Assembly (NCBI GenBank): GCA_018267475.1
Contig: JAFDYI010000024.1
Location: 1-64,000, forward strand
Length of the DNA: 64,000 nt
DNA from: Bacteroidota bacterium
GTDB lineage: Bacteria > Bacteroidota > Bacteroidia > B-17B0 > Aurantibacillaceae
Reading direction: 5' to 3'
Of this stretch, positions 26,884-55,723 are shown one piece after another (position 1 is the first letter of the stretch; each line of letters opens with the position of its first letter). A model generated the notes under the pieces. It was not told where the DNA came from, made no database searches, and saw nothing but the letters and a program-made list of their open reading frames with translations. The position numbers and the translations under genes were made by a program.

Positions 26884-29800
26884 ATGTTAGAAAAAATCAT
26901 TGCGTTTAGCATAAAAAACAAGCTTATTATTTTGCTTGCAACGGCCGCCCTTATTGTATGGGGAATATGGAGTGCTACTAAATTACCTATTGATGCCGTT
27001 CCGGATATTACCAGCAATCAAGTACAAATTATAACCACCTGCCCTACCCTTGCCGGGCAAGAAGTAGAACAACTGGTAAGCTACCCAATAGAGCAAGGCA
27101 TGGCTAACCTTCCTGATTTAGAAGAGTTGCGAAGTGTGTCGCGCTTTGGACTATCGGTTATTACTCTTGTCTTTAACGACAAAACCGACATTTATTTTGC
27201 CCGACAACTTATCAACGAAAAGCTAAAAGAAGTAGAAAAAAAAATACCGGCCAATATAGGAACGCCGGAGCTGGCCCCTGTAAGCACCGGGCTGGGTGAA
27301 GTATATCAATATCTTTTGCGCGCTAAAAAAGGCAGCGAAAAAAAATATACGGCAATGGATTTGCGCACCTTGCAAGATTGGATAGTAGCACGCCAATTAT
27401 ATGGAACACCGGGCGTTGCCGAAGTGAACAGTTTTGGAGGGGCACTGAAGCAGTACGAAGTATCTATCAACCCCAACAAACTACAAGCCATGAATGTAAG
27501 CATAGCCGAAATTTTTTCTGCTTTAGAAAAAAACAACGAAAATACCGGCGGAGCTTACATCGATAAAAAGCCAAATGCTTATTTCATAAGAAGTCTTGGG
27601 CTTATTCACTCGTTTGAAGATATAAAAAACATAGCCGTAAAAAACAACCCAAATGGCATTCCTATACTTATAAAGGATGTTGCCCAAGTAGGCCTGGGTA
27701 AAGCTACCCCGTATGGAGCTATGACCTACGAAGGAAACGAAGAAGTGGTGGGCGGCATTGTAATGATGCTAAAAGGTGCTAACGGAGCAGAGGTAGTAAA
27801 CCGTATTAAAGAAAAAATGCAACAAATAAAAACATCACTCCCTAAAGATGTTGTGATAGAACCCTTTTTAGATAGAACCGATTTAATAAAAAGAGCCATA
27901 TCAACCGTAGAAAAAAATTTAATAGAAGGAGCCCTTATTGTTTTATTTGTACTGGTTTTGTTTTTGGGCAGCATACGCTCCGGCCTTATTGTAGCCTCTG
28001 TAATACCTCTATCTATGCTTTTTGCTTTAGGCCTTATGAACGTGTTTCAGGTGTCGGCCAATCTTATGAGCTTAGGGGCTATAGATTTTGGCTTATTGGT
28101 GGACGGAACCATCATCATAGTAGAGGCAACCATGCATCATTTAGGGTTAAGAAAAACAAGTTTTATTCTATCTCAAAAGGAAATAGATGCCGAAGTGCTG
28201 CAATCGGCTTCTAAGATACGAAAGAGCGCTGCCTTTGGAGAAATTATTATTTTATTGGTGTATATCCCTATCCTTACGCTAGTTGGTATAGAGGGGAAAA
28301 TGTTTCGCCCTATGGCTCAAACGGTAGGCTTTGCCATAGTGGGGGCTTTAATTTTATCGCTTACCTACGTACCGATTGCGTGCGCTTTATTTTTGCAAAA
28401 AAAGCCCTCAATCAAAAAAAACAAAAGTGAAGCTTTTATTCTTTTTTTACAGAAAACATATACCCCTCTTTTAGAAAAAGCCATTCAGTTAAAAAAAGAA
28501 GTGCTGGCTGCAACCTTCCTTTTGCTTATAACCGCTGTGCTTATTTTTTCAAAAATAGGAGGCGAATTTATGCCCGTTTTGCAAGAAGGCGATTTTGCTT
28601 TTCATTGCATTCTCCCACAAGGTACTTCTATTTCGCAAAGTGTAGAAACCTCTATGCAAGCCATGCGGTTAATAAAAGAATTTGATGAAGTAAAAATGGT
28701 AGTAGGGAAAACAGGAAGTGCCGAAATACCTACTGACCCCATGCCTCCTGAAGCTACCGATATGATTATTGTACTAAAACCTGTTGATGAATGGAAACGA
28801 AAAATATCTTACAATGAGCTGGCCGACGAAATACTACAAAAAATATCGGTTATTCCCGGCGTGTTTTTTGAAAAAAGCCAACCGATACAAATGCGTTTTA
28901 ACGAACTAATGACCGGCGTAAAACAAGATGTGGCTATAAAAATATTTGGAGAAAACTTAGACACACTATACGCTTATGCAAAAAAAACACACCATACTAT
29001 TAAAAATATACAAGGAGTAAGCGAAGCCAATATAGAACGGGTAGAAGGGCTTCCTCAAATTGTCATAAAATACCACCGAAATCAAATAGCTAACTATGGG
29101 CTAAACATTGAATACATAAACAACTTGGTGCGCACCGCTTTTGCAGGAAAAAAAGCAGGAGTTGTTTTTGAAAACGAGAGAAGGTTTGACTTGGTGTTGC
29201 GCCTAGATAGCAACTACAGAAACAGCATAGAGCATGTAAACCAATTATATGTTTCCTTAGCCGATGGAACGCAAATACCTTTATCGCAATTAGCCGAAAT
29301 AAGCACAGAAATAGGGCCGGCTCAAATAAGTAGAGAGCAGGGAAAAAGAAGAATTGTAATTGGCTTGAATGTAAAAGGAAATGATGTTACGAATGTAGTG
29401 CAAGCTATTCAAGAAAAACTAAATCAATCGGTTACTCTTCCGGAGGGCTATTACTACACCTATGGAGGTACTTTTAAAAATATGCAAGAAGCCAACAAAA
29501 GATTAAGCGTTGCTTTACCCATAGCTTTAATTCTTATTTTTATTTTATTGTATTTTACCTTTCATTCAGCCGGTCAAGCTTTTTTAGTTTTTACAGCAGT
29601 GCCTATGAGTGCCATAGGGGGTATTTTTGCGTTAAGCCTGCGCAGTATGTCGTTCAGTATTTCGGCTGGCATTGGCTTTATTGCCTTATTTGGTGTAGCT
29701 GTACTAAACGGTATTGTGTTGATAAGCACTTTTAATCAATTAGAAAAAGAAGGCATGGCCGATGCTGTTGAACGCATAAAAGAAGGAACAAAAATCAGGC

Positions 29801-31230
29801 TGCGCCCGGTACTAATGACGGCAACCGTAGCTTCTTTAGGCTTTTTGCCCATGGCTTTATCTAGCGGTGCCGGAGCAGAGGTTCAAAAGCCACTAGCAAC
29901 CGTAGTAATAGGAGGGCTGCTTAGTGCTACTTGTCTTACGTTGTTCGTGTTGCCTTTGCTGTATCTCCTTTTTTCAAAAAAAGAAAAAATAAAAACACCT
30001 GCTTCCTCTCTTGTTATTTTAGCATTTTTTTTGTTTGCTGTCAATACTTCGCATGCTCAAACAAAGAGTATATCTGTTGAAGAAGCTATTAAAACAGCTC
30101 AACAAAATAATTTAAGAATAAAAGCACAAGACCTAAACGTGCAGGCCGCAAAAGTCATAAAAAAGACTGCATTTGAATTGCCTAAAACTGCTTTTAATAC
30201 GCAATTAGGACAATACAACAGCATCAATCAAGACAAGGGTTTTTCTATCATACAAAACATTCCGTTTCCTTCTTATTTTTCAGAAAAGGCTCTTTTATAC
30301 AAAGAAGAAATAAAAAAAAGTGATTTAGAAAAACGAGTGGTAGAAAACGAAATACGGAGCCAGGTTCGGTATCTTTTTTATCAACTGCAATACCTGCAAC
30401 AGGTAAAAAAAACATTACAATCGTTAGACAGTTTATACTCTAATCTTGAAAAAGCAGCCGGCTTGCGTTACCAATTAGGCGAAACCAACTTGTTAGAAAA
30501 AGCTACCGCAGACGCAAAACGAGGTCAGTTTTCTATTTTATGGCAAAAAAACGAAACCGATATTTTTAATTTTTATGCTTCTCTAAAAAACATGATGAAT
30601 ACAAAAGATGATTTTGATTTAGATACAAATTATAGTCCTGTTTTTGTTACAGATTCCTTAGCCCTATCTCTTGCCGAAAACAATGTTTCTCTAAAAGTAT
30701 TGCAGCAACAAGCCTTTCTTATAGGGCAAGCCAAAAGAGTAGAAACCGCTTCTGCCCTACCCGATTTTACCATTGGATATTTTAACCAATCGCTTATTGG
30801 CACACAAATAATTAACGGCTCCGATATCTATTTTGATGGAAGCAAGCGATTTCAGGGGCTTAACGTGGGTGTAAATATCCCGGTTTCTTTTTTTAGCAAT
30901 ATAGCAAAAGTAAAATCATTAGACTACAAAAAACAATCGGCAATAAAAGAAATTGAAAATGAAAAAAACACCTTGCAAACACAGATACAAAACGCATACA
31001 AGCAATATAAACAAGCTCTAAGCCAATACCAGTACTATAAAACGCACGGATTGACTTATGCTAAAACGATTATGCAAACCGCCTCTTTATCTCTAAAAAC
31101 AGGAAACATCCATTACATAGAATATTTACAAGCACTGCAAACGGCTACGGATATACAAATGGCTTATTTGCAAAGCATCAATCAAATCAACCAATCTACT
31201 GTTCAAATTAATTTTTTAATAAACAATTAA
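26884..31230 (+). CDS. CzcA-type RND metal pump fused to a C-terminal TolC/CzcC-like domain
   Basis: A 1448-residue fusion. Residues 1 to about 1030 are a complete heavy-metal RND pump with N-terminal helix, DFGLLVDGTIIIVEA in TM4 (D401, D407, E414 relay acids) and a full second half. A segment SSLVILAFFLFAVNTSHAQ (about 1040-1058) then looks like an intact signal peptide, followed by about 390 residues of outer-membrane efflux protein with helical repeats (EEAIKTAQQNNLRIKAQDL). Such fusions are known in Bacteroidetes. A pump anchored in the inner membrane cannot itself span the outer membrane unless the tail is cleaved or the linker is used differently. The motif favours Co/Zn/Cd/Ni. Confidence 0.9.
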   Translation: MLEKIIAFSIKNKLIILLATAALIVWGIWSATKLPIDAVPDITSNQVQIITTCPTLAGQEVEQLVSYPIEQGMANLPDLEELRSVSRFGLSVITLVFNDKTDIYFARQLINEKLKEVEKKIPANIGTPELAPVSTGLGEVYQYLLRAKKGSEKKYTAMDLRTLQDWIVARQLYGTPGVAEVNSFGGALKQYEVSINPNKLQAMNVSIAEIFSALEKNNENTGGAYIDKKPNAYFIRSLGLIHSFEDIKNIAVKNNPNGIPILIKDVAQVGLGKATPYGAMTYEGNEEVVGGIVMMLKGANGAEVVNRIKEKMQQIKTSLPKDVVIEPFLDRTDLIKRAISTVEKNLIEGALIVLFVLVLFLGSIRSGLIVASVIPLSMLFALGLMNVFQVSANLMSLGAIDFGLLVDGTIIIVEATMHHLGLRKTSFILSQKEIDAEVLQSASKIRKSAAFGEIIILLVYIPILTLVGIEGKMFRPMAQTVGFAIVGALILSLTYVPIACALFLQKKPSIKKNKSEAFILFLQKTYTPLLEKAIQLKKEVLAATFLLLITAVLIFSKIGGEFMPVLQEGDFAFHCILPQGTSISQSVETSMQAMRLIKEFDEVKMVVGKTGSAEIPTDPMPPEATDMIIVLKPVDEWKRKISYNELADEILQKISVIPGVFFEKSQPIQMRFNELMTGVKQDVAIKIFGENLDTLYAYAKKTHHTIKNIQGVSEANIERVEGLPQIVIKYHRNQIANYGLNIEYINNLVRTAFAGKKAGVVFENERRFDLVLRLDSNYRNSIEHVNQLYVSLADGTQIPLSQLAEISTEIGPAQISREQGKRRIVIGLNVKGNDVTNVVQAIQEKLNQSVTLPEGYYYTYGGTFKNMQEANKRLSVALPIALILIFILLYFTFHSAGQAFLVFTAVPMSAIGGIFALSLRSMSFSISAGIGFIALFGVAVLNGIVLISTFNQLEKEGMADAVERIKEGTKIRLRPVLMTATVASLGFLPMALSSGAGAEVQKPLATVVIGGLLSATCLTLFVLPLLYLLFSKKEKIKTPASSLVILAFFLFAVNTSHAQTKSISVEEAIKTAQQNNLRIKAQDLNVQAAKVIKKTAFELPKTAFNTQLGQYNSINQDKGFSIIQNIPFPSYFSEKALLYKEEIKKSDLEKRVVENEIRSQVRYLFYQLQYLQQVKKTLQSLDSLYSNLEKAAGLRYQLGETNLLEKATADAKRGQFSILWQKNETDIFNFYASLKNMMNTKDDFDLDTNYSPVFVTDSLALSLAENNVSLKVLQQQAFLIGQAKRVETASALPDFTIGYFNQSLIGTQIINGSDIYFDGSKRFQGLNVGVNIPVSFFSNIAKVKSLDYKKQSAIKEIENEKNTLQTQIQNAYKQYKQALSQYQYYKTHGLTYAKTIMQTASLSLKTGNIHYIEYLQALQTATDIQMAYLQSINQINQSTVQINFLINN

Positions 31231-42495: not shown

Positions 42496-42924
42496 ATGTT
42501 TCATATCAACCCATCGGATAAAGAATTATACCAAATACTGACTCAAAGCAAGGTCATTGCCATGGTAGGCGCATCGGCCAACCCTGATAAAACGTCGCAT
42601 GGCATTATGAAAAAACTGCAATCGGTAGGATATAAAGTGATACCCATAAACCCAAACGAAAAAGAGATATTGGGCGAGCCCTGCTACGCCTCTCTTTTAG
42701 ATGTAAAAGAAAAGGTGGGTATTGTAAATGTTTTTCGCAAACCCGAAACGATAGTACCCATCGCAAAAGATGCGGTATCCATAAAAGCACAAACGCTTTG
42801 GCTGCAAAGCGGCATCATCAACGAAGAAGCGGCTAAAATAGCTTTGCAGGGAGGACTACATGTAGTGATGGATGCCTGCATAGGAGTAATGCACGCTTTT
42901 TTAAATGTGCCCAACCATGACTAA
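42496..42924 (+). CDS. CoA-binding (YccU-like) protein
   Basis: 142 residues of the small CoA-binding/Rossmann family. IAMVGASANPDKTSHGIMK carries the dinucleotide-type loop, then GYKVIPINPNEKEILGEPCY and the late WLQSGIINEEAAKIA and VMDACIGV, as in E. coli YccU. Likely binds CoA or a nucleotide; no reaction is known. It is the first gene of a five-gene unit with overlapping ends (next gene overlaps by 8-20 nt). Confidence 0.88.
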   Translation: MFHINPSDKELYQILTQSKVIAMVGASANPDKTSHGIMKKLQSVGYKVIPINPNEKEILGEPCYASLLDVKEKVGIVNVFRKPETIVPIAKDAVSIKAQTLWLQSGIINEEAAKIALQGGLHVVMDACIGVMHAFLNVPNHD

Positions 42925-43711
42925 AACTCCAAAAAAAACTTTTTTTAATGTAGTACTTATAGGAGCAGGAAATGTAGCCACACACTTGGCTATGCAATTA
43001 ATAAAAAGAAAACACCACATTCTACAAATTGTATCGCGCTCAAAAAAAAGCGGAAGCACTTTATCAAAAAAAACAAAAACCGCTTTTACTACGGATATAA
43101 AAAAAATAAATAAGACCGCCGATATTTACATTATATGCTCGCCCGACGATGCTATTGAAAAAATAGCCAATCAACTATCCTTATCAAAAAAAATAATACT
43201 TCATACATCAGGCAGCACCTCTATAGACATTTTAAAAGAAAGCAGCGCAAATGTAGGTGTATTATATCCTTTGCAAAGTTTTTCTAAAGAGATAAAAACT
43301 GATTTTTCATCAGTACCTATTTTGATAGAAGCTAACAACAACCACACCTTACAAGCTATAAATACATTAGCATCTACTTTGAGTACACACGTAATAAAAA
43401 GCGATTTTGAACATCGTATAAAATTACACCTGGCTGCTACTATGGTAAATAATTTTGGCAACTACTTGCTCGCCCTTACCTATCATTTTTTAGAAGAAGA
43501 TAAAGCTGATTTTTCGTTACTTTTTCCTTTAATAAAGCAAACATCAAAAAAAATAGAAAAACAAACTCCTTTTAAAGTACAAACCGGCGCAGCGCGACGC
43601 GGCGATAAAAAAACCATTACGAAACACCTGAATTTATTAAAAAAATACCCAGAACAAAAAAAGATATATACTCTTTTTACTCAGTTAATTAAACAACATT
43701 ATGAGCGCTAA
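42917..43711 (+). CDS. Rossmann-like and DUF2520 domain protein
   Basis: About 264 residues. The N-terminal NAD(P)-binding fold is VVLIGAGNVATHLAMQL with IYIICSPDDAIEKIA. The C-terminal DUF2520 helical domain has HLAATMVNNFGNYLLALTYH. It resembles ketopantoate- or F420-dependent reductases in layout, but the substrate is unknown. The start could be ATG 42917 (MTKTPKK) or 42905; either overlaps the upstream gene. Overlaps the phosphatase gene by 11 nt. Confidence 0.8.
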   Translation: MTKTPKKTFFNVVLIGAGNVATHLAMQLIKRKHHILQIVSRSKKSGSTLSKKTKTAFTTDIKKINKTADIYIICSPDDAIEKIANQLSLSKKIILHTSGSTSIDILKESSANVGVLYPLQSFSKEIKTDFSSVPILIEANNNHTLQAINTLASTLSTHVIKSDFEHRIKLHLAATMVNNFGNYLLALTYHFLEEDKADFSLLFPLIKQTSKKIEKQTPFKVQTGAARRGDKKTITKHLNLLKKYPEQKKIYTLFTQLIKQHYER

Positions 43712-44216
43712 TTTTAAACAACGACTAACTAAAATAACCACCTTGATTTTTGATGTAGATGGCGTACTAAGCGATGGTAAAGTATTTTTTATGCCGGACG
43801 GGACCCCTGTGCGAAACCTAAATATGAAAGACAGCTACGCCTTACAACTTGCTGTAAAAAAAGGTTTTAGAGTGCTTATTATTACGGGAGGCAATTCGGA
43901 AGTACTCAAAAAATCGTTACACACTTTAGGTATTGAGCATGTATTTTTAAAACAACACGACAAACTCAGCTGCTATAAAGATTGCATGGCCGAATTTGAA
44001 TTTACCGATGAACAAGCTCTATATATGGGCGACGACCTGCCCGATTATGAAACGATGCAGCGCGTACATATAGCTTGTTGTCCAAACGATGCCGTTTCTG
44101 AAATAAAAAAAATATGCATCTATATATCCGACAAAAAAGGAGGAGATGGCTGTGTACGCGACATTATAGAACAAGTATTGCGGTCTCAACAAAAATGGGA
44201 AATTACCCATTGGTAA
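43701..44216 (+). CDS. kdsC: KdsC-like HAD phosphatase
   Basis: 171-residue HAD enzyme of the KdsC type: IFDVDGVLSDGKVFF (nucleophile Asp and second Asp), VLIITGGNSEVLKK, and YMGDDLPDYETMQ (late metal-binding Asp). No cap domain, as in tetrameric Kdo-8-phosphate phosphatases that release Kdo for lipopolysaccharide. The neighbouring kdsA and kdsB are absent, so another phospho-sugar is possible. Confidence 0.82.
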   Translation: MSANFKQRLTKITTLIFDVDGVLSDGKVFFMPDGTPVRNLNMKDSYALQLAVKKGFRVLIITGGNSEVLKKSLHTLGIEHVFLKQHDKLSCYKDCMAEFEFTDEQALYMGDDLPDYETMQRVHIACCPNDAVSEIKKICIYISDKKGGDGCVRDIIEQVLRSQQKWEITHW

Positions 44217-44246
44217 AACCACAAAAAACATCTATTTTTGATGTAC

Positions 44247-45197
44247 ATGAATCTAAAAAATTTCATACATTTAATTCGATACAAAAATTTATTAATTATA
44301 GCACTCACCATGCTGACCATGCAATTAGGAGTAGTAAACCCCTTGCTTCTAAAAAATGAAACGCAGCCTTTTTGTTCCATGCACTTAATCTTGCTTGTTG
44401 CCAGTACCCTTTTAATAGCGGCTTCCGGTTACATCATCAATGATTATTTTGACGTAAAAACAGATAAAATAAACAAGCCCGACAAAACCTACATAGATAA
44501 AGGAGTGAAACGCCGCGTAGCTATTATTATGCATGTTTTTTTTAATAGTTTAGGCATCCTTATATCTGCCTATTTATCCTACAAAAAACAAAATATATGG
44601 CTGCTTCTATTTTCTGTTTTAGCAGTAGTTTTATTATGGTTTTATTCTACCCATTTAAAAAAACAATTGGCTATTGGCAATGTAGTAGTAGCCCTCCTCA
44701 CAGCCCTCATACCGCTTCAAGTGCTTTGTTTAAATATATATCCTTTTATACAAAAAAACGGATATCCTATTCCCGGTACTTATTTGCCTTCCATAATAGC
44801 AAGCGTTTGTTTTTCTATTTTTGCATTTTTACTATCTATGGTAAGAGAAATAATAAAAGACATAGAAGATTACGAAGGAGATTACGCCACGGGCTGCAAA
44901 ACCATACCTATTGTTTGGGGTATAAAAGCCTCAAAAGCATTGATAGCAGGCCTTATCAGCAATACGGTGTTGTTGCTGTTGTTTTCTTTTTACAAACTAT
45001 ATCAATTGCACTTTAATATGCTTTCATTGTATTTATTTTTTTGTGTACTTAGTCCTTTATTTTATTTATTTTTTAAACTCTATAAAGCACAAAACAAACA
45101 ACATTACGGGAGTATTAGTAAATGGCTAAAATTTATTATGATTTCAGGTATTTTATCAACAGTACTTATTTATCTTTCTTGTTATGGATATATGTAA
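44247..45197 (+). CDS. UbiA-family prenyltransferase
   Basis: About 316 residues with eight or nine transmembrane helices. Two aspartate-rich Mg-prenyl-diphosphate motifs are visible: NDYFDVKTDKINKPDK (near residue 65) and DIEDYEGDYATGCKT (near 210). These fit UbiA enzymes such as geranylgeranylglycerol-phosphate transferase-type proteins of Bacteroidetes. The acceptor is unknown. ATG 44247 is preferred over 44241 because a -7-like TATTTTTG (44233-44240) touches the latter. Confidence 0.85.
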   Translation: MNLKNFIHLIRYKNLLIIALTMLTMQLGVVNPLLLKNETQPFCSMHLILLVASTLLIAASGYIINDYFDVKTDKINKPDKTYIDKGVKRRVAIIMHVFFNSLGILISAYLSYKKQNIWLLLFSVLAVVLLWFYSTHLKKQLAIGNVVVALLTALIPLQVLCLNIYPFIQKNGYPIPGTYLPSIIASVCFSIFAFLLSMVREIIKDIEDYEGDYATGCKTIPIVWGIKASKALIAGLISNTVLLLLFSFYKLYQLHFNMLSLYLFFCVLSPLFYLFFKLYKAQNKQHYGSISKWLKFIMISGILSTVLIYLSCYGYM

Positions 45198-45756
45198 ACA
45201 CAATCTTATTCTAGGCTCGGCTTCGCCTCGCCGAAAACAACTACTAGAAGATGCCGGTTTTTTGTGCAAAACAACCCCTATCAACGCCGAAGAGAGCTTT
45301 CCTGCTCACCTGCAAGCGCAAGAAATACCTTTATATTTAGCTCATAAAAAGGCAAGCAACTACCCTTTTCCGCTAAAAGAAAACGATGTATTGATTACTG
45401 CTGATACCGTAGTTTGGGTTAAAAATACCGTGCTAAACAAACCTGAAAACGAGCTGGAGGCCAAGCAAATGTTGCAGATTCTATCCGGAAAAAAGCATCA
45501 AGTTTTTACGGGAGTTTGCCTCACTTCTAGCAAAAAACAAGTTTCTTTTTACGATGAAACCACTGTTTTTTTTAAAACCTTAACCGAACAAGAAATTATT
45601 TTTTACATTCGAAAATACCAACCTTTTGACAAAGCCGGAAGCTATGGAGCGCAAGACTGGATGGGGCTTACAAGCATTACGCGCCTGGAAGGAAGTTATT
45701 TTAACGTGATGGGATTGCCAACGCATAAACTGTACGAGCATCTGCAGCAATTTTAG
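45184..45756 (+). CDS. maf: Maf-family nucleotide pyrophosphatase
   Basis: 190-residue house-cleaning enzyme. It begins CKHNLILGSASPRRKQLLEDA with the SxSPRR motif, followed by AEESFP, LITADTVVW and the KAGSYGAQDWMG loop. Members hydrolyse non-canonical or modified NTPs and inhibit septum formation. It overlaps the prenyltransferase gene by 14 nt, so it is translated from the same mRNA. Confidence 0.92.
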   Translation: MDICKHNLILGSASPRRKQLLEDAGFLCKTTPINAEESFPAHLQAQEIPLYLAHKKASNYPFPLKENDVLITADTVVWVKNTVLNKPENELEAKQMLQILSGKKHQVFTGVCLTSSKKQVSFYDETTVFFKTLTEQEIIFYIRKYQPFDKAGSYGAQDWMGLTSITRLEGSYFNVMGLPTHKLYEHLQQF

Positions 45757-47636: not shown

Positions 47637-49622
47637 TTACTTAGGCAACATCGCATATTGGTCGCGGTAATAAAGAGCTCGGGTGCTGTCCTTTACTTCT
47701 AGTAATTTACCAAACAAGTATTGTGCTAATTCTTTGTTAGGCGAAAGAGTAAAGGCCTGTTCCAAGTGTTTTATTCCTTGCAGTGTATCGCCCGTTAGCA
47801 TTAAACAATTTCCGTATTGAGCGGTAAATAAATAATTATCGGGCATGTTTGCGTAAGCCTCTTTTGCTAAAGGAAGTGCGAGGGCATAATTTTTTTGTTC
47901 AAACAACATCTCTATCAAGGCTTTGTACGAATTGTATTGTTGTGGGTTTTGAAAAGTAGCTATTCTATAATTAATGTAGGCATCTTTAAAATTACGAATA
48001 TATCTATAATAGTTAGCTAAATTTTCGTGGGCTTGGGGGTATGGGCGCGGGCTGTGCCTTAAAGCTAATTTAAAGTATTTTTCAGCTAGTTGATACTGCC
48101 CTTTGTAGGAATATATTAAAGCGCCGGCGTTATTAAACGCTGAAAAAATAGTAGAATCGTTGCTCAAAGCATATTGGTAACAATTTAATATATTATCTAC
48201 CAAAAATTGCTTGGTATATTGTGGCCCCCCACCTATCCCTGTATTTAGTATTTCATAATATTTATTGCCTAACATATTACTGGCTCCTACCGATTTGGGT
48301 TCGTATTGCTGATCGTTTTCGTATAAAGAAAGTTCGCTTTTCCAATTGCTGTTTCGTTGCCAATCGCGCAACAAAAAAAGAAACAGAACGATTGTTAAAT
48401 ACACCATCGGTTTTTGAAAAAAATCAGAAAGGGCTATTTTTGATGGAACCGTTTTATACAAAGAAAACAAAACCGACACAATAAACATGACAAAGCCTGC
48501 CGAAGCTATAAAACAAAGTCGTTCGCCTACGATACCCGCCAGTGGTTTAAACAAATTAACAATAGCTGCCATGGATAACAAAAAGAAAAGCAGGCTAAAT
48601 AAAGATATTTTGCTTTTCTTTTTGTAGCAAAACCAAATAGAAAAAAACAAAAAAGCAATTCCTATTAAAACATCAACATCAAACAAATTTTGATGAAGTG
48701 TTTGTAAGGGATAACCGTAATAATAGCGCAACGGGTGCGGAAAAAAGAGCAGTTTGGTGTAAATGCCAAACGATTTTAAGGCAAAAGGTATTTTTTCTAT
48801 AAAAGGCAGATGCGCCCCATACAACGGGTTTTCAAAATGATAATCAAAACGTATCTCTTCTTCGCCTGAAGTCATGTATTTTCTTACTTGTAAGTAAGAA
48901 ACGTACACAAGCGCTAAGGCTCCCAACACATAAGCTATTTGCTTTTTGCTTATTTTAGTATAAAAAACAGCTATAAGCGGTATTAAAACTAAAGCTAAAA
49001 TGGCCGAAACTTTACTAAAAAAACCCAGTAAAATAAACAACGCGCACCATAGCGCGTATTGCCCTTTTTTTTCTTCAACAAAACGCAAAAAATGCAAAAA
49101 AGACAAAAAAACAAAAAGGGCTACCAACAACTCGTCTCTACATTTAATATTGTTTACTACCTCGGTATGAATGGGATGAGCTAAAAACAAAATACCACAA
49201 ACCAAAGCAAACACTTGAGCATAGGGATTCTCGCCCATTATTTTTTTAATAAAAAGAAACAGACAAAAAACAACCAAAGCATATACTAATAAGTTAATAA
49301 AGTGATCTATGCGCGGCGATTGCCCCCATATAGAATACTCAATAGCAAACATAGTAACAGTAAGAGGCCGGTAGTCGTAGTTAGTGCCCTTGCCGTGCCC
49401 ATAGTGGGTACGCCATATCTTAGGTATGGCTTTTACACCTTGCGAAACCAATTCATTATTAGGTTTGTAATTTTTTTCATTTCCTTTTACTGGGTAATTC
49501 GTTACGGTAACATACATATCATCTAAGCTATAACCGTTAACTAAGCTATTTCCATAAAAGAGCAAGGTTAGCGCTAAAAAAAAGTGAAATACATTGATAT
49601 TAGAAGATAGTATTTTTTTCAT
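47637..49622 (-). CDS. Membrane glycosyltransferase-like protein with C-terminal TPRs (TMTC-like)
   Basis: 661 residues. The N-terminal ~420 residues contain about ten helices. The first loop YSLDDMYVTV carries the paired Asp typical of GT-C mannosyltransferases, and the motif LAHPIHTEVVNNIKCRDELL is like the HPIHTExV...GRxELL block of TMTC proteins. TPR repeats follow (AEKYFKLALRHSPRPYPQAH, DAYINYRIATFQNP and others). Periplasmic O-mannosylation is the family model; the substrate is unknown. It converges on ubiD with 8 nt between the stops. Confidence 0.75.
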   Translation of the reverse strand: MKKILSSNINVFHFFLALTLLFYGNSLVNGYSLDDMYVTVTNYPVKGNEKNYKPNNELVSQGVKAIPKIWRTHYGHGKGTNYDYRPLTVTMFAIEYSIWGQSPRIDHFINLLVYALVVFCLFLFIKKIMGENPYAQVFALVCGILFLAHPIHTEVVNNIKCRDELLVALFVFLSFLHFLRFVEEKKGQYALWCALFILLGFFSKVSAILALVLIPLIAVFYTKISKKQIAYVLGALALVYVSYLQVRKYMTSGEEEIRFDYHFENPLYGAHLPFIEKIPFALKSFGIYTKLLFFPHPLRYYYGYPLQTLHQNLFDVDVLIGIAFLFFSIWFCYKKKSKISLFSLLFFLLSMAAIVNLFKPLAGIVGERLCFIASAGFVMFIVSVLFSLYKTVPSKIALSDFFQKPMVYLTIVLFLFLLRDWQRNSNWKSELSLYENDQQYEPKSVGASNMLGNKYYEILNTGIGGGPQYTKQFLVDNILNCYQYALSNDSTIFSAFNNAGALIYSYKGQYQLAEKYFKLALRHSPRPYPQAHENLANYYRYIRNFKDAYINYRIATFQNPQQYNSYKALIEMLFEQKNYALALPLAKEAYANMPDNYLFTAQYGNCLMLTGDTLQGIKHLEQAFTLSPNKELAQYLFGKLLEVKDSTRALYYRDQYAMLPK

Positions 49623-49688: not shown

Positions 49689-49696
49689 TATATTTG
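49689..49696 (+). promoter_or_regulatory. -7 element TATATTTG, 5 nt before the KAS III cluster
   Basis: Consensus -7 box directly before the ATG at 49702. A GTG at 49696 overlaps it and is rejected. Confidence 0.6.
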
Positions 49697-49701
49697 TGCT
49701 A

Positions 49702-50682
49702 ATGTCGGTTTTTATACAAGATATTGCAGTTTATTACCCTGAAAAAGTCCTCACCAACAAGGAACTAGCCCTTGCTTTCAATACCGAAGAAGATCTTATT
49801 CTCAAAAATACGGGCATCAAGAAGCGCTACATATCTGCTCCATACGAGATAGCCTCTGATATGGCGGTAAAGGCAGCCGAAAAATTATTTGAATCAAAGA
49901 ATATCAACAAAAACGATATAGATTTTCTTATTTTTTGTTCTGAATGTCTTGATTATATCGCGCCGGCCAGCAGTTGTATTATACAAGATCGGTTACAACT
50001 AAGCAAAAACATAGGATGTATTGATATTCCGTATGGTTGTTCCGGTTATATATATGGCTTAGGCATGGCTCACGCATTGCTTGAATCGGGTATGGCAAAA
50101 ACCATTTTGTTTCTAACATCAGAAACATCTACTAAAGTCATTGCTGCCTCTAACTTTGAATTACGTAGTATTTTTAGCGATATAGCTACCGCCAACCTGT
50201 TGCTAACAAAAGACAGCAAACAACATTTTGTTTTTGGTACCGATGGTTCTGGGCATAAAAACCTATTGGCAAATTATAGCGGTTTTAGAAATGCGGCCGA
50301 CTGCAACAGAACCACTAAGTCTGAACTACTAAACGGAGAGATGAAAATGAACGGGACTGAAATTTTTTTGTTTGCCGCAAAAACAGTTCCAAAATTGGTG
50401 CAAGACGTGCTTAGCAAACACCATTGCACGCTAGATGAGGTGGATTTATTTGTGTTTCATCAAGCCAGTTATTTTTTGTTAGAAATACTTCGGAAAAAAA
50501 TAAAAATACCTAAAGAGAAATTTTTTTGTAATATTGAGCAAGTAGGAAACTCTGTATCTTCAACCATTCCGGTAGCTTTGCATCAGGCCGAACAACAAGG
50601 CGTGCTAAAACGAGGTATGAAAGTGCTATTAGCCGGGTTTGGCATAGGATACAGCTGGGGAGGAACCATAATAACGTACTAA
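49702..50682 (+). CDS. 3-oxoacyl-ACP synthase III-like condensing enzyme, first copy
   Basis: 326-residue thiolase-fold protein of the FabH type. Catalytic Cys in DIPYGCSGYIYGLGMAHALL, His in FVFHQASYFLLEILRKK and Asn in NIEQVGNSVSSTIPVAL, so the Cys-His-Asn triad is complete. FabH proteins start fatty acid chains; duplicated copies beside a dedicated ACP usually serve special acyl chains rather than housekeeping. First gene of the accessory cluster; ACP follows after 5 nt. Confidence 0.88.
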   Translation: MSVFIQDIAVYYPEKVLTNKELALAFNTEEDLILKNTGIKKRYISAPYEIASDMAVKAAEKLFESKNINKNDIDFLIFCSECLDYIAPASSCIIQDRLQLSKNIGCIDIPYGCSGYIYGLGMAHALLESGMAKTILFLTSETSTKVIAASNFELRSIFSDIATANLLLTKDSKQHFVFGTDGSGHKNLLANYSGFRNAADCNRTTKSELLNGEMKMNGTEIFLFAAKTVPKLVQDVLSKHHCTLDEVDLFVFHQASYFLLEILRKKIKIPKEKFFCNIEQVGNSVSSTIPVALHQAEQQGVLKRGMKVLLAGFGIGYSWGGTIITY

Positions 50683-50687
50683 AATAT

Positions 50688-50927
50688 ATGATAACCGTAG
50701 AAGAATTTACCAAAAACCTAGAAGCTGAGTTTGAAGAGATAAAAACCGGCACGCTTACACCCACTATGCACTACCGCCAGATACCCGGTTGGAGCAGTAT
50801 GTATGCTTTAATTATTATTGCTTTTGTGGATACGCATTTTGAAGTGCAACTAAATGCCACCGATTTAAAAAATGCGCAAACCATACAAGATTTATATACC
50901 ATTGTACTATCTAAGCAGCAAGCATAA
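50688..50927 (+). CDS. Dedicated acyl carrier protein
   Basis: 79 residues with the ACP helical layout. The pantetheine attachment site reads GWSSM (residues 34-38) where most ACPs have DSL, leaving Ser37 as the likely carrier. IIIAFVDTHFEVQL and the end TIQDLYTIVLSK are typical. It lies 5 nt after one KAS III gene and 2 nt before the next, so it is the shared carrier for both. Confidence 0.85.
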   Translation: MITVEEFTKNLEAEFEEIKTGTLTPTMHYRQIPGWSSMYALIIIAFVDTHFEVQLNATDLKNAQTIQDLYTIVLSKQQA

Positions 50928-50929
50928 AA

Positions 50930-51988
50930 ATGGCTTTGTTTAATACCCATAACGTTTCTATAAAAGGTATAGCAGCTTGCGTGCCAAAAGAAAAAATACG
51001 TACTGCAGACTATCCTTATTTTTCGGAAGCAGAAAAAGATTTGTTCATAAAAAATGTAGGTATTAAAGAAAGGCGAGTAGCACCAAGCAACATAGCTACC
51101 TCTGATATGTGCTTTTTTGCCGCAGAAAAATTGATACAAAAATTACAGTGGAACAAAGACGAAATTAGCTGCTTGGTATTTGTATCGCAATCGCCTGATT
51201 ATTTTTTGCCGGCTACCTCCATTCTGCTACAACACCGCCTGGCTCTAAATAAAAACACCATGGCTTTTGATGTAAATTTAGGTTGCTCCGGTTACATATA
51301 CGGCTTGCAGCTTCTTTCAACATTGGTAGCTACGGGGCAAATAAAAAAAGCACTGCTCTTAGTAGGAGATAAATCCACCCTATCTACACATATAGAAGAT
51401 AAAAGCACCTACCCTTTGTTTGGCGATGCGGGCAGCGCTACCGCCATTGAGTTTGACGAAAAAGCACACCCCATATATTTTAATTTGCAAAGCGATGGAA
51501 GCGGCGAAGATGCTATAAAAATACTAGATGGAGGCGCAAGAAACTCCGTACGCCCAGATACCTTTAATATACAAGAAATAGAACCCGGCATAAAACGCAG
51601 CCGAAGACATCTGCAACTGCAAGGCGTTGACGTTTTTAACTTTGCGCTGCGCGAAGTTGCCCCTAACATAAATCAGCTATTACCATTTTCTCATGTAGAA
51701 AAAGAAAAAATAGATTTTTTTGTTTTCCATCAAGCCAACAAATTGATGAATGAAAGCGTTCGTAAAAAGTTAAAAATTGAATTAGAAAAAACGCCTTATT
51801 CTATTGATGAATTTGGCAATACAAGCTCCGCGTCTATTCCGCTAACTATGATAACTCGCTTGAAAAACCAATTAGAAAATAAAAAAAACACCATGCTGTT
51901 GTCGGGCTTTGGAGTGGGTTATTCTTGGGCATCGTGCATACTTACCGTCAACAACCCTATTTGCTGCGATTTAATAGAAATAGAATGA
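50930..51988 (+). CDS. 3-oxoacyl-ACP synthase III-like condensing enzyme, second copy
   Basis: 352 residues, also with Cys-His-Asn: DVNLGCSGYIYGLQLLST, FVFHQANKLMNESVRKK and IDEFGNTSSASIPLTM. The sequence clearly differs from the first copy and is slightly longer. It begins 2 nt after the ACP gene and its stop overlaps the SDR start by 4 nt (ATGA). Two different condensing enzymes with one ACP suggest priming plus extension, or two alternative acyl products. Confidence 0.88.
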   Translation: MALFNTHNVSIKGIAACVPKEKIRTADYPYFSEAEKDLFIKNVGIKERRVAPSNIATSDMCFFAAEKLIQKLQWNKDEISCLVFVSQSPDYFLPATSILLQHRLALNKNTMAFDVNLGCSGYIYGLQLLSTLVATGQIKKALLLVGDKSTLSTHIEDKSTYPLFGDAGSATAIEFDEKAHPIYFNLQSDGSGEDAIKILDGGARNSVRPDTFNIQEIEPGIKRSRRHLQLQGVDVFNFALREVAPNINQLLPFSHVEKEKIDFFVFHQANKLMNESVRKKLKIELEKTPYSIDEFGNTSSASIPLTMITRLKNQLENKKNTMLLSGFGVGYSWASCILTVNNPICCDLIEIE

Positions 51989-52734
51989 ACCTGCAAGGAA
52001 AACATATTTTAATAACAGGTGCCTCGGCCGGTATAGGCAGGCAAACAGCCATAGACGCCTCTTTACAAGGAGCACAGCTTACCATTACCGGTCGTAATGA
52101 AAAAGAATTGCAGCACACGCTGCAACAATTATCAGGAAAAGGACACAGCCTTTTGGTTGCTGATTTAAAAAAAGAAGCAGAAATAAAACATATAAGTAAT
52201 CAAATAAAGCCTTTAGACGGCATAGTACATGGTGCAGGCATTGTAAAACCGGTTCCGGTAAAATTCATACAAGCTGCGCAAATAGAAGATGTTTTTTCTA
52301 TAAACTTTATTTCGGTGGTACTTTTAAATGCACAACTACTGCAACAAAAAAAAATAAACAACGGAGCATCAGTAGTATTGCTATCCACCATCTCTACCTT
52401 ACACCCATACTTTGGAGGCGGCATTTATATTGCCTCAAAAGCAGCTTTAGAAGGCTATGGAAAAACATTAGCTTTAGAGTTATTGCAAAAAAAAATACGA
52501 GTAAACATATTACAACCGGCTATGGTAAAAACAGCCATCTACCAATCAACTATAGAAACCGCTTTTAATGAAGAAGAAATGAAAAAGTACGAAAATCAAT
52601 ACCCTTTAGGCATTGGCAACCCAAACGATGTATCTGAAGCCATTTGCTATTTGTTATCCGAAAAATCAAAATGGATTACCGGCACCTCTATTCCTATGGA
52701 TGGAGGCTTGCTTTTAGGTTCTTTAAAATCATAA
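51985..52734 (+). CDS. Short-chain dehydrogenase/reductase (FabG-like)
   Basis: 249 residues with the NAD(P) loop TGASAGIGRQTA and the active-site Ser/Tyr/Lys in LLSTISTLHPYFGGGIYIAS, where YIASK is the Tyr-xxx-Lys. The usual NNAG is replaced by HGAG. C-terminal GTSIPMDGGLLLG is normal for the family. In this setting it probably reduces the 3-oxoacyl-ACP made by the KAS III pair. The start (ATG 51985) overlaps the KAS stop. It ends 2 nt before the glycosyltransferase start. Confidence 0.85.
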   Translation: MNLQGKHILITGASAGIGRQTAIDASLQGAQLTITGRNEKELQHTLQQLSGKGHSLLVADLKKEAEIKHISNQIKPLDGIVHGAGIVKPVPVKFIQAAQIEDVFSINFISVVLLNAQLLQQKKINNGASVVLLSTISTLHPYFGGGIYIASKAALEGYGKTLALELLQKKIRVNILQPAMVKTAIYQSTIETAFNEEEMKKYENQYPLGIGNPNDVSEAICYLLSEKSKWITGTSIPMDGGLLLGSLKS

Positions 52735-52736
52735 AA

Positions 52737-53648
52737 ATGAATTGTTTTTCTATTATTATACCCGTTTATAATTCAGCTCCTTTTCTTGCTGAAACCGTGC
52801 AAGAAGTAACTACTTCTATAGAAAAAATAAACCCTTTGTATGAGCTTATTTTAATAAATGACGGAAGCACCGATGATTCTTGGAACGTAATAAAAGAATT
52901 GAAAAGCAAAAACAAACAAATTACCGGTGTTAATTTCAATAAAAATTACGGGCAACATAATGCCTTGCTTTGTGGGATTAATTTATGCAACTCCGATTAT
53001 ATCATAACCCTTGATGACGATTTAGAGCAAAACCCGAAAGACATTACCACCCTATATAAAAAAATAACAGAAGGTGGTTTTGATTTGGTTTATGGAATGC
53101 CTAAAAAATCAACTAAAAACATCTTTAGAAAAATAACTCGATTTGTTTACAAAACAGTTTCGCGCAATGAGTATAAAAAAGCAGGGGAAGGAAGCAGTTT
53201 CAGAATTTTTACCAACGACCTGAAGAACAAGCTGGTAAAACACCAGGGTTCTTTGTTTTTTATGGATGAAATAGCGCTTTGGCACAGCGACAATATTACC
53301 TTTGTACCCGTTCATTTTAATCCATCAAAAAGAAAAAAATCAACATACGGATACGGTAGTTTATTTACCCTTTCGTTACGAGTTTTATCATTAAGTTCTA
53401 CCATGCCTTTGCGTTTAGTGCGCGTGTTTGGCTTTTATATTTCCGGATTTAGCGTAGCTTTAGGTATTTACTTTGCTGTCAGAAAATTTTTTAACAACGT
53501 ACCTATGGGCTATACCTCTCTAATGGTTACCATACTCTTTAGCACGGGTATTGTTATGGCCTCTTTAGGAATTATAGGGGAATATCTGGGAAATCTTATT
53601 GCTTTATCAAACAACAAACCGGCATACTCTATAAAAGAAAAAATATGA
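52737..53648 (+). CDS. Family 2 membrane glycosyltransferase (ArnC/GtrB-like)
   Basis: 303 residues. Catalytic N-terminal GT-A fold with FSIIIPVYNSAPFLAETVQE, LILINDGSTDDSW and the acidic ITLDDDLEQNPKDI. Two C-terminal transmembrane helices (about 235-300) resemble dolichyl/undecaprenyl-phosphate sugar synthases. It would attach a sugar to a lipid carrier or to the acyl product of the cluster. The start is ATG 52737 (MNCFSIII). Its stop overlaps the next start (ATGA). Confidence 0.88.
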   Translation: MNCFSIIIPVYNSAPFLAETVQEVTTSIEKINPLYELILINDGSTDDSWNVIKELKSKNKQITGVNFNKNYGQHNALLCGINLCNSDYIITLDDDLEQNPKDITTLYKKITEGGFDLVYGMPKKSTKNIFRKITRFVYKTVSRNEYKKAGEGSSFRIFTNDLKNKLVKHQGSLFFMDEIALWHSDNITFVPVHFNPSKRKKSTYGYGSLFTLSLRVLSLSSTMPLRLVRVFGFYISGFSVALGIYFAVRKFFNNVPMGYTSLMVTILFSTGIVMASLGIIGEYLGNLIALSNNKPAYSIKEKI

Positions 53649-54283
53649 CGGTAGAACAATACGGAGTAACATACACGCGCATAACAGAGCATGATATTGA
53701 GTTGATACGATATTGGCGCAACCAACCTTTTATAAGAGATACCATGCAATTTACAGAATACATTACAGCAGAAATGCAGCAAGCATGGTTCAAAAAAATA
53801 AACAACAAACACAACTATTATTTTTTAATAGAAACAAATAACACAAAAATAGGATTAGTGAATTGCAAAGACGCAGAGCCTAACACAGGAATTGCCGAAG
53901 GCGGTATTTTTTTATGGGATAAAAGCTATTGGGGCTCGCCTATCGCCGGCTTTGCTGCCCTAACAACCCTTGAGTGCGTTTTTGAGGTTCTAAAATCGGG
54001 AGAGGCTTCTATGGCTACTGTATTAAAAAAAAACACGCATGCCTTAGCCTTCAATAAAAAATTAGGTTACGAAATTATAGGCGAAACAGCTAACAAAAAT
54101 TTCTACAAATTGCTTTTAACCAAAGAAACTTATTTCAAAAAAACGCTTGTATTAAAAAACGCGGCTCGTACTTTTTATGAAGGAGCGCCTGATATAAAAA
54201 TAAAAATAGATGAAGCCGAATACCCTTTGGTTATTGATGAGATAATAAACTACGCTTTGCTCCAAAAAAAAATTACGGGTTAA
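53645..54283 (+). CDS. GNAT acyltransferase, PseH/RimJ-like
   Basis: 212 residues. The N-terminal half follows the GNAT pattern of amino-sugar N-acetyltransferases: LIRYWRNQPFIRDTMQF, WFKKINNKHNYYFLI, KIGLVNCKDAEPN, and an acyl-CoA-binding ATVLKKNTHALAFNKKLGYE. It could add an acetyl or longer acyl group (even from the cluster's ACP) to an amino sugar. A C-terminal tail of about 55 residues is not recognised. It overlaps the dioxygenase gene by 11 nt, tail to tail. Confidence 0.78.
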   Translation: MTVEQYGVTYTRITEHDIELIRYWRNQPFIRDTMQFTEYITAEMQQAWFKKINNKHNYYFLIETNNTKIGLVNCKDAEPNTGIAEGGIFLWDKSYWGSPIAGFAALTTLECVFEVLKSGEASMATVLKKNTHALAFNKKLGYEIIGETANKNFYKLLLTKETYFKKTLVLKNAARTFYEGAPDIKIKIDEAEYPLVIDEIINYALLQKKITG

Positions 54284-54938
54284 GAGAAGGGAACTCGCCT
54301 TTTTCAAAAAAAGAAAGCCACTGCTCTTTACTGAACATATTAAGCATAAAGGTGTCTTCCATGTTTTCTATTTTATATTTATTTATCTCATGGGCGCTAT
54401 ATCCCCACAAGGGGTTTGCAATATCCAGCATAAGTACAAAGCGGTCTTGGTTGCTATTATTCCAGGCCTCGTGCTCAAAAGAATCGTCAAAAACAAGCAA
54501 CTTACCTTCTTCCCATTTTTTTGTATCGCTTCCTACACGGATACCGCAATTATCAGGAATAATGAGTCCTAAATGAACACGCAACACCATACGTGTAAAG
54601 CCCTTATGCGGCTTTATTTGTGTATGAGCCGGCAAATATGAAAAATCGGCTGATACTAAATTAGGTATCTTATTTAAAACACCTGCGGTTTTAGGGCACA
54701 AATTACAATTATCAGGGTGCTTAATGCCAAAAAAAAGAAAAGAAAATACCTGCCACTTGTTTTTACTTTCAGGCTTTAAATAATGCGGAAACGATTCAAA
54801 CCAATTTTTGCCTTTAACCTGCTTCCTTAAGGTGTTTAGCTCTTCTAAAACAACAGAAAAATGCTCCTCCAGCACACGCAACTGAGGGTGCTCGTCAAGC
54901 GAATAAAAATATTTCGGATTTTTTTTTGTGAATTCCAT
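54273..54938 (-). CDS. Aspartyl/asparaginyl beta-hydroxylase-family (LpxO-like) dioxygenase, first copy
   Basis: 221 residues of the Fe(II)/2-oxoglutarate AspH/LpxO fold. Metal ligands probably lie in IKPHKGFTRMVLRVHLGL and SFEHEAWN, with the 2-oxoglutarate-binding Arg in DRFVLMLDI. It also has a CNLC motif (GIKHPDNCNLCPKT), an unusual extra cysteine pair. Family members hydroxylate protein Asp/Asn or acyl chains of lipid A or ornithine lipid. Transcribed toward the cluster, from a -7 element TACATTTG ending 4 nt before the ATG. Confidence 0.82.
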   Translation of the reverse strand: MEFTKKNPKYFYSLDEHPQLRVLEEHFSVVLEELNTLRKQVKGKNWFESFPHYLKPESKNKWQVFSFLFFGIKHPDNCNLCPKTAGVLNKIPNLVSADFSYLPAHTQIKPHKGFTRMVLRVHLGLIIPDNCGIRVGSDTKKWEEGKLLVFDDSFEHEAWNNSNQDRFVLMLDIANPLWGYSAHEINKYKIENMEDTFMLNMFSKEQWLSFFEKGEFPSLNP

Positions 54939-54942
54939 AGTT

Positions 54943-54950
54943 CAAATGTA
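54943..54950 (-). promoter_or_regulatory. -7 element TACATTTG before the first dioxygenase
   Basis: Minus-strand consensus box 4 nt from the ATG at 54938. Leaderless start predicted. Confidence 0.55.
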
Positions 54951-54979
54951 ATAAATTTTATACTTTTAGTACCGTATTT

Positions 54980-55723
54980 ATGAAACTTTGGTTTAGCATA
55001 TTTGACAGAAACGAATATAATGGAAATGAGCCCCCGTTTTTCAACCCCACAGATTATTCTTTTTCTAAAGTCATTACAGATAATTACCCCATCATAAAAA
55101 AAGAATTAGCCGATTATCTATCTAAGTACGAACTGCAAAGTTATTTTAACAGCACTATGGTTGCTAAAGTCAATACATGGAAAACGGTTTCTTTAAAAAC
55201 ATGGAACGTTGAAATTTACGAACACCATAAATACTTCCCCGAAACCTTAAAAATAATTCAATCAATACCCGGATTGGTTTCAGCATCTTTTAATTTATTA
55301 GAGCCTCACGGACACATTGTTCCGCATTGCGGTGATACAAACGGTATTTTTCGTTGTCATTTAGGCCTTAGCATTCCGGGAACAACCCCTGCCTGCGGCT
55401 TTAGAGTAAAAAACGAATGGAGAAGCTGGGAAGAAGGGGCTTTATTGGTTTTTGTAGATGCCAACAACCATGAAGCTATAAACAACACCTCTGACAACCG
55501 ATTTATTTTTTTATTTGATGTAGTAAGAGATGAAGTTTTAGCAAAAAAGAAATGGATTTGCGCTACCGTGCTTACCTCTTTGTTCTTACAAAAATGGGCA
55601 GAGGCAATTCCTTCTTTATCTAAAGTTCCTTTATGGCTTCAAAAAGCAACAGCCCTATCTTTAGTTCCTTTTGCGTACCTTGCCATTCCGGTAAGAAATG
55701 CCATTTATTCTTTCAAAAAATAA
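54980..55723 (+). CDS. Aspartyl/asparaginyl beta-hydroxylase-family (LpxO-like) dioxygenase, second copy
   Basis: 247 residues of the same family. Ligands lie in HIVPHCGDTNGIFRCHLGL and NNHEAINNTSDNRFIFLFDV. A C-terminal ~45-residue extension ends in a hydrophobic segment (ATALSLVPFAYLAIPV), possibly membrane-associated, unlike the first copy. It diverges from that copy with 41 nt between the starts. Paired paralogues suggest two hydroxylation sites or two acyl substrates. Near-consensus TACTTTTA precedes the start. Confidence 0.82.
   Translation: MKLWFSIFDRNEYNGNEPPFFNPTDYSFSKVITDNYPIIKKELADYLSKYELQSYFNSTMVAKVNTWKTVSLKTWNVEIYEHHKYFPETLKIIQSIPGLVSASFNLLEPHGHIVPHCGDTNGIFRCHLGLSIPGTTPACGFRVKNEWRSWEEGALLVFVDANNHEAINNTSDNRFIFLFDVVRDEVLAKKKWICATVLTSLFLQKWAEAIPSLSKVPLWLQKATALSLVPFAYLAIPVRNAIYSFKK

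Follow-up and report, generated by a model that had tools for sequence, protein, structure and literature searches.

The 64,000-nucleotide (nt) stretch analysed here, positions 1-64,000 of contig JAFDYI010000024.1 (GCA_018267475.1) and called the window throughout, carries a gene cluster that probably directs an ArnC/ArnT-style decoration of the cell surface with an N-acylated amino sugar, the acyl group being fed from an acyl carrier protein (ACP). The cluster encodes two type III 3-ketoacyl-ACP synthases (KAS III; KASa and KASb), an ACP, a short-chain dehydrogenase/reductase (SDR), a GT2 glycosyltransferase, a GNAT, two 2-oxoglutarate dioxygenases (DOXa and DOXb) and a TMTC-like GT-C glycosyltransferase, arranged as follows.

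47637-49622, minus strand: TMTC-like GT-C glycosyltransferase with C-terminal TPRs, 661 aa (homologues match PMT_2 or TMTC_DUF1736; Foldseek)
49689-49696, plus strand: TAnnTTTG box TATATTTG, possible -7 element (weak; sequence motif at chance frequency)
49702-50682, plus strand: first KAS III, KASa (PF08541/PF08545)
50688-50927, plus strand: noncanonical ACP, 79 aa (conserved W-x-S...D motif)
50930-51988, plus strand: second KAS III, KASb (PF08541/PF08545)
51985-52734, plus strand: SDR, FabG-like 3-ketoacyl-ACP reductase (PF13561/PF00106)
52737-53648, plus strand: GT2 polyprenyl-phosphate glycosyltransferase, ArnC/GtrB-like (PF00535)
53645-54283, plus strand: GNAT N-acyltransferase, PseH/SpeG-like (PF13302)
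54273-54938, minus strand: 2-oxoglutarate dioxygenase DOXa, AspH/LpxO/OlsC family (PF05118, 2e-46)
54980-55723, plus strand: 2-oxoglutarate dioxygenase DOXb, AspH/LpxO/OlsC family (PF05118, 2e-38)

The eight genes from KASa to DOXb had been proposed as a cluster by an earlier reading of the DNA (the original prediction), and all eight were recovered as open reading frames. The first six form the tight plus-strand run that had been described, with intergenic distances of 5, 2, -4, 2 and -4 nt. The DOXa gene is convergent with the GNAT gene, their 3' ends overlapping by 11 bp, and DOXb starts 41 bp past the DOXa start on the opposite strand. The proposed set was incomplete, however, since it missed the GT-C gene, which lies divergently 79 bp upstream of KASa, outside the interval considered, and belongs to the system as its ninth part. 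The box TATATTTG, which had been taken for a -7 element, is indeed found 5 nt ahead of the KASa ATG. We rejected it as promoter evidence: the window contains 104 TAnnTTTG matches where shuffling predicts 104, so that the box carries no weight alone, and inspection by eye revealed no TTG or TTTG at the usual -33 spacing from it.

Of all markers of the system, KASb was shared most widely. In a class-wide sample of 395 Bacteroidia genomes, with KASb called at E below 1e-70, it was detected in 67, a minority of which carry an O-antigen-type version of the locus. Among 147 distinct KASb loci, 97 have a GT2 and a GNAT downstream, and these 97 loci include ACP in 94, SDR in 77, KASa in 61 and a TMTC-like gene within 12 kb in 57. 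All six genes stand on one strand in 61 distinct loci, and the window's order was found in 60 of the 61, a conservation across Bacteroidia far beyond chance. In the window's own family, the whole array of TMTC (minus strand), KASa-ACP-KASb-SDR-GT2-GNAT (plus strand), DOXa (minus strand) and DOXb (plus strand) recurs in many genomes. The genes are thus not scattered in relatives. Two genomes (G050 and G008) have the KASa-ACP-KASb-SDR quartet locally without GT2 and GNAT, and in both the GT2 and GNAT genes remain an adjacent pair elsewhere in the genome. The fragmented genome G052 also has the quartet without them, with GT2 and GNAT on separate small contigs. A compact form, TMTC followed by ACP-KASb-GT2-GNAT and without KASa, SDR or dioxygenases, was found in one genus (g3).

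The residues required of the acyl quartet are conserved. Both KAS III proteins contain the Cys-His-Asn triad, which in KASa (Cys113-His253-Asn283) is kept in at least 95% of 31 sequences and in KASb (Cys119-His267-Asn297) is invariant among homologues. Ser134, Tyr148 and Lys152 of the SDR are likewise conserved. The protein encoded at 50688-50927 matched no Pfam or NCBIfam model and was called an ACP because of its W-x-S...D motif, in which W35, S37 and D48 are invariant in 18 aligned homologues and at least 95% conserved in 38; Ser37 is the predicted phosphopantetheine site. In a KAS tree with four rows as the FabH reference (FabH rows L019 and L020, taken in error from the opposite strand, were disregarded), KASa and KASb were separate from housekeeping FabH, and copies of the window type grouped and interleaved with copies of the O-antigen type from Flavobacterium, Mucilaginibacter and other Bacteroidota. 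Since the two kinds of copy interleave, one KAS-ACP-KAS-SDR module is re-used in two delivery contexts, the O-antigen type and the window type. We suggest that, as the first step of the pathway, the four proteins assemble a short, ACP-bound beta-hydroxyacyl chain. One KAS III would prime the chain from acetyl-CoA and malonyl-ACP, the SDR would reduce it, the other KAS III would extend it and the SDR would reduce it again. Because acetyl-CoA taken twice through KAS and reductase yields 3,5-dihydroxyhexanoyl, a product similar to 3,5-dihydroxyhexanoyl-ACP is, by analogy, the most likely.

The closest solved relatives of the GT2 were ArnC (9hwj; query residues 4-301, E 6e-37) and GtrB (5ekp; 2e-33), in alignments that are nearly full length and include the C-terminal membrane part. 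Its DDD93-95 is conserved among homologues. It scored 132.4 bits against the NCBIfam ArnC equivalog PRK10714, whose cut-off is 529, and is therefore ArnC-like rather than ArnC. The products of ArnC-type enzymes are monophosphate-linked sugars, which serve as donors for GT-C enzymes such as ArnT, so that transfer in the periplasm is a natural final step. In GNATs, the loop [RQ]xxGx[GA] binds the pyrophosphate of coenzyme A (CoA). This loop was present in none of 30 homologues of the window's GNAT, all 30 of which have sequences such as YWGTSIP in its place, whereas solved CoA-dependent relatives of the SpeG type retain it (QGYGYA and QGKGLA). The lost loop, together with the obligate ACP neighbour, indicates that the donor may be acyl-ACP instead of CoA. 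In a second step, the GNAT would thus pass the chain from the ACP onto the amino group of an amino-deoxy sugar that is linked to a nucleotide (or already to the lipid) and supplied by an aminotransferase encoded elsewhere in the genome, and in a third the ArnC-like GT2 would load the sugar onto undecaprenyl phosphate. Half-length DegT/DnrJ-type proteins of ~200 aa were found at or near the TMTC gene of compact-form loci (L082:6106-6723, L084:13685-14314, L085:12592-13194 and L276:10811-11416). They appear to keep the region of the pyridoxal phosphate lysine, and in genome G016 such a protein adjoins TMTC even though TMTC no longer lies at the KASb locus there. Their place beside TMTC supports the link to an amino sugar.

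TMTC proteins are a family of animal cadherin O-mannosyltransferases. Among 29 homologues of the GT-C, 22 match Pfam PMT_2 and five match TMTC_DUF1736; the window protein itself matches PMT_2 and not DUF1736. Invariant positions include a DD (34-35) in the first periplasmic loop, YRP, R-D, a Lys and R368 of the ER motif. With respect to the TMTC motifs, M1 is present, M2 (YRP), M4 (Lys) and M7 (ER) are partial, M3 is approximate, and M5 and M6 did not resolve. The membrane domain was modelled with a pLDDT of 86. A Foldseek search with the full model was swamped by TPR matches and the membrane domain was used alone instead, which returned PglB, STT3, ArnT and Pmt4, all GT-C proteins, with probability 1.00 and E 0.001-0.06. 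A PDB sequence search with the domain gave no meaningful match. The protein thus combines a GT-C membrane fold, an acidic motif in the first periplasmic loop and C-terminal TPRs, and it is likely the final periplasmic transferase. After flipping of the lipid-linked sugar, it would, as a fourth step, transfer the sugar to an acceptor in the periplasm. The TPR domain favours a protein as that acceptor; a lipid or glycan is possible too. A second TMTC-like GT-C was seen in the same genome (L275:9605-11578, G000 contig 14), near a gene for a large 1545-aa secreted-type protein.

A TMTC-like GT-C was detected in 64 of the 67 KASb-positive genomes and in 146 of the 328 others (Fisher 2e-16, calculated across related and hence non-independent genomes with a profile built from cluster-linked copies). 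The three KASb-positive genomes without it carry the O-antigen-type version, in which ACP-KASb-SDR is accompanied by aminotransferase genes and, in two of the three, by PglD-like and PglC-like genes as well. These observations bear on an unlikely alternative, in which a Wzx/Wzy polysaccharide (O-antigen or capsule) contains the acylated sugar as one of its residues, as in the fish pathogen Flavobacterium psychrophilum, and the GT-C is an incidental neighbour. In Flavobacterium and related genomes, homologues of the quartet do belong to O-antigen clusters that also encode a PglC-like transferase, PglD and aminotransferases, and some compact loci adjoin ABC-exporter and glycosyltransferase genes. 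However, no Wzx, Wzy, PglC or other glycosyltransferase was found within several genes of the window locus, and its GT2 is of the ArnC-like kind that makes the monophosphate-linked sugar used by GT-C enzymes. Moreover, TMTC tracks the GT2/GNAT version: it is absent from the three O-antigen-type genomes of the class sample, and six named O-antigen-type genomes contained no full-length TMTC match. We therefore favour transfer of the acylated sugar by the GT-C.

The two dioxygenases, which the original prediction counted among the members of the set, are present in the window but are accessory. DOXa was found in 31 and DOXb in 35 of the 97 GT2- and GNAT-containing loci, about one third, and outside this version dioxygenases were found in 1 of 38, which is why we regard them as optional tailoring enzymes. 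DOXb is often tandemly duplicated in relatives. His111, His156 and Arg166 of DOXa and His116 and His164 of DOXb are conserved. The best NCBIfam matches of both were OlsC and LpxO, with OlsC scores of 4e-34 (118 bits) for DOXa and 4e-32 (112 bits) for DOXb. The 64-118 bits that they reached in all fall short of the LpxO and OlsC equivalog cut-offs (500 and 450 bits), placing them in the superfamily PF05118 only. As a fifth step, they might add further hydroxyl groups to the acyl chain or elsewhere on the conjugate. For this step alone, it is also conceivable, if rather doubtful, that they are Asp/Asn peptide hydroxylases acting on secreted proteins modified by the GT-C and have nothing to do with the acyl chain, given that PF05118 also includes AspH and that the TPR domain suggests a protein acceptor. 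The closest models are nevertheless the acyl hydroxylases OlsC and LpxO. A Rieske oxygenase gene lies between KASb and SDR in O-antigen-type modules of Flavobacterium (L149:11053-12150 and L262:9428-10522) and PhyH enzymes are encoded near compact loci, which suggests that these systems recurrently oxidise the acyl sugar and points to small-molecule tailoring. A third dioxygenase of this PF05118 type (L281:9406-10200, G000 contig 24) stands alone between GatB-like and sigma-factor-like genes.

Sulfotransferase-family genes, often paired, flank 34 of the 97 loci (for example L049:13528-15695, L053:13446-15688, L103 and L236), and many lineages may sulfate the conjugate. That the product is instead a free or membrane glycolipid, or an amino-acid or sphingoid-type lipid, with the GNAT acylating an amino lipid, the GT2 glycosylating it, the dioxygenases hydroxylating its chain and the sulfotransferases of relatives turning it into a sulfolipid, would suit those flanking genes and the OlsC and LpxO matches, but is improbable, since the GT2 resembles enzymes with a polyprenyl phosphate acceptor, KAS III enzymes serve to start chains, and the window cluster was found to lack the dehydratase, enoyl reductase and long-chain KAS that a lipid chain would call for.

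The acylated amino-sugar surface decoration that had been proposed from the first eight genes therefore fits, and is strengthened by the catalytic residues, the ArnC/GtrB relatives of the GT2 and the gene order. Gene content, conserved residues, gene order, co-occurrence and homology are what the analysis shows directly; all substrates, the sequence of the second and third steps, the flip, the acceptor and the role of the dioxygenases are what we infer. Several points weigh against it. TMTC-like proteins are common in Bacteroidia (210 of 395 genomes), so that the co-occurrence of KASb and TMTC is weaker than the p-value suggests, and the relatedness of the genomes and the origin of the profile pull the same way. 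The Foldseek E-values for the GT-C are modest. The GNAT matches the NCBIfam PseH model at 2e-15 and 57 bits, under its 93.1-bit cut-off. No aminotransferase or dehydratase was found in the window neighbourhood of the cluster, and the amino sugar is accordingly read from the GNAT; six strong DegT aminotransferase matches lie elsewhere in the genome, none tied to the cluster. Finally, the acyl group must differ among lineages, because compact relatives are without KASa and SDR.

If correct, the proposal links three parts of which we know no joint description, namely a dedicated fatty-acid/polyketide line in miniature, an ArnC-like step on a lipid carrier and a TMTC-type GT-C. The proposal would supply a candidate donor sugar for prokaryotic TMTC-like proteins and a genetic handle on them, predict an acyl-ACP-dependent GNAT, and extend the R-group chemistry of F. 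psychrophilum serotypes from the O-antigen to another kind of surface decoration. More tentatively, Bacteroidia may possess a widespread glycosylation in which a TMTC-type GT-C places a single hydroxyacyl (polyketide-like) amino sugar on secreted proteins, with the GNAT fed by a dedicated ACP.

In the window, genes for NAD-binding-type, HAD phosphatase-like, UbiA-like and Maf-like proteins (42905-45753) flank the system. Genes that match these in length and resemble them in N-terminal sequence precede a compact locus (L082:3182-6101), and the chromosomal site shared by the two appears conserved as judged from these matches. Two large RND-type efflux-like genes (5165-8269 and 26884-31227) have periplasmic and outer-membrane-type neighbours. 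Downstream of the cluster in L069, L072-L076, L108 and L216 are, in tandem, an AMP-ligase, a PP-binding ACP, an acyl-CoA dehydrogenase and an unannotated, membrane-rich protein of ~800 aa; the first three resemble the prolyl-to-pyrrolyl carrier-protein set and could, by analogy, feed a second acyl decoration. B12-binding radical SAM proteins are encoded upstream of the ACP in L111 (8296-9660) and ten other loci, all of Bacteroidales type. Metagenome-assembled genome records labelled Saccharibacteria, Moraxellaceae and Alcanivoracaceae (L099, L147 and L173) also carry this Bacteroidota system. The labels are probably wrong, as the contig of L099 also occurs in a genome assigned to the same genus as the window.

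The system was finally compared with known ones. The original prediction knew of no described cluster with this exact set of genes. The acyl quartet is in fact described: wfpC-wfpF of F. psychrophilum (KAS-ACP-KAS-reductase) were proposed by Cisar and colleagues to make the 3,5-dihydroxyhexanoyl of Qui2NAc4N in the O-antigen (PMC6519341). Compared by published gene list rather than by sequence, the wfp genes for the R1-group of the O-polysaccharide and the window share a single-cluster arrangement of two distinct 3-ketoacyl-ACP synthases with their own ACP and a 3-ketoacyl-ACP reductase, as well as an N-acyltransferase proposed (within wfpC-wfpG) to load a short hydroxyacyl onto an amino sugar (PMC6519341). 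They differ in that the wfp acyltransferase is PglD-like, whereas the window locus has a GNAT and neither the PglD-like gene nor PglE/PglF sugar genes. A PglC-like phosphotransferase in wfp contrasts with the ArnC-like GT2 that would load the sugar in the window, and Wzx/Wzy with the TMTC-like GT-C; the window has dioxygenases in addition. The GNAT shares one subfamily with the PseH and SpeG N-acetyltransferases by Pfam, NCBIfam and PDB, and departs from them in its sub-threshold PseH score and replaced CoA-pyrophosphate loop. The dioxygenases share PF05118 and a conserved His pair with the LpxO and OlsC acyl 2-hydroxylases but score far under the family cut-offs. As in the ArnC/ArnT and GtrB/GT-C systems, an ArnC/GtrB-related GT2 is paired with a GT-C, whose membrane domain has ArnT, PglB and Pmt among its fold matches; unlike in ArnC/ArnT, ArnA/B/D do not accompany it, the GT-C has TPRs and a dedicated acyl pathway is added. 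The eukaryotic O-mannosyltransferases TMTC1-4, whose published motif set includes SHKSYRP, M4 and M7 (PMC7801869), resemble the window protein in the GT-C domain with C-terminal TPRs and in the conserved DD, YRP of SHKSYRP, M4 Lys and M7 ER, while the M4 Glu is absent from it. A literature search limited to open-licence papers found no KAS III/ACP/ArnC-like/GNAT/TMTC cluster beyond the wfp genes. Together, these comparisons suggest that a known acyl quartet has here been joined to a seemingly undescribed combination of an ACP-fed GNAT, an ArnC-like GT2 and a TMTC-like GT-C.

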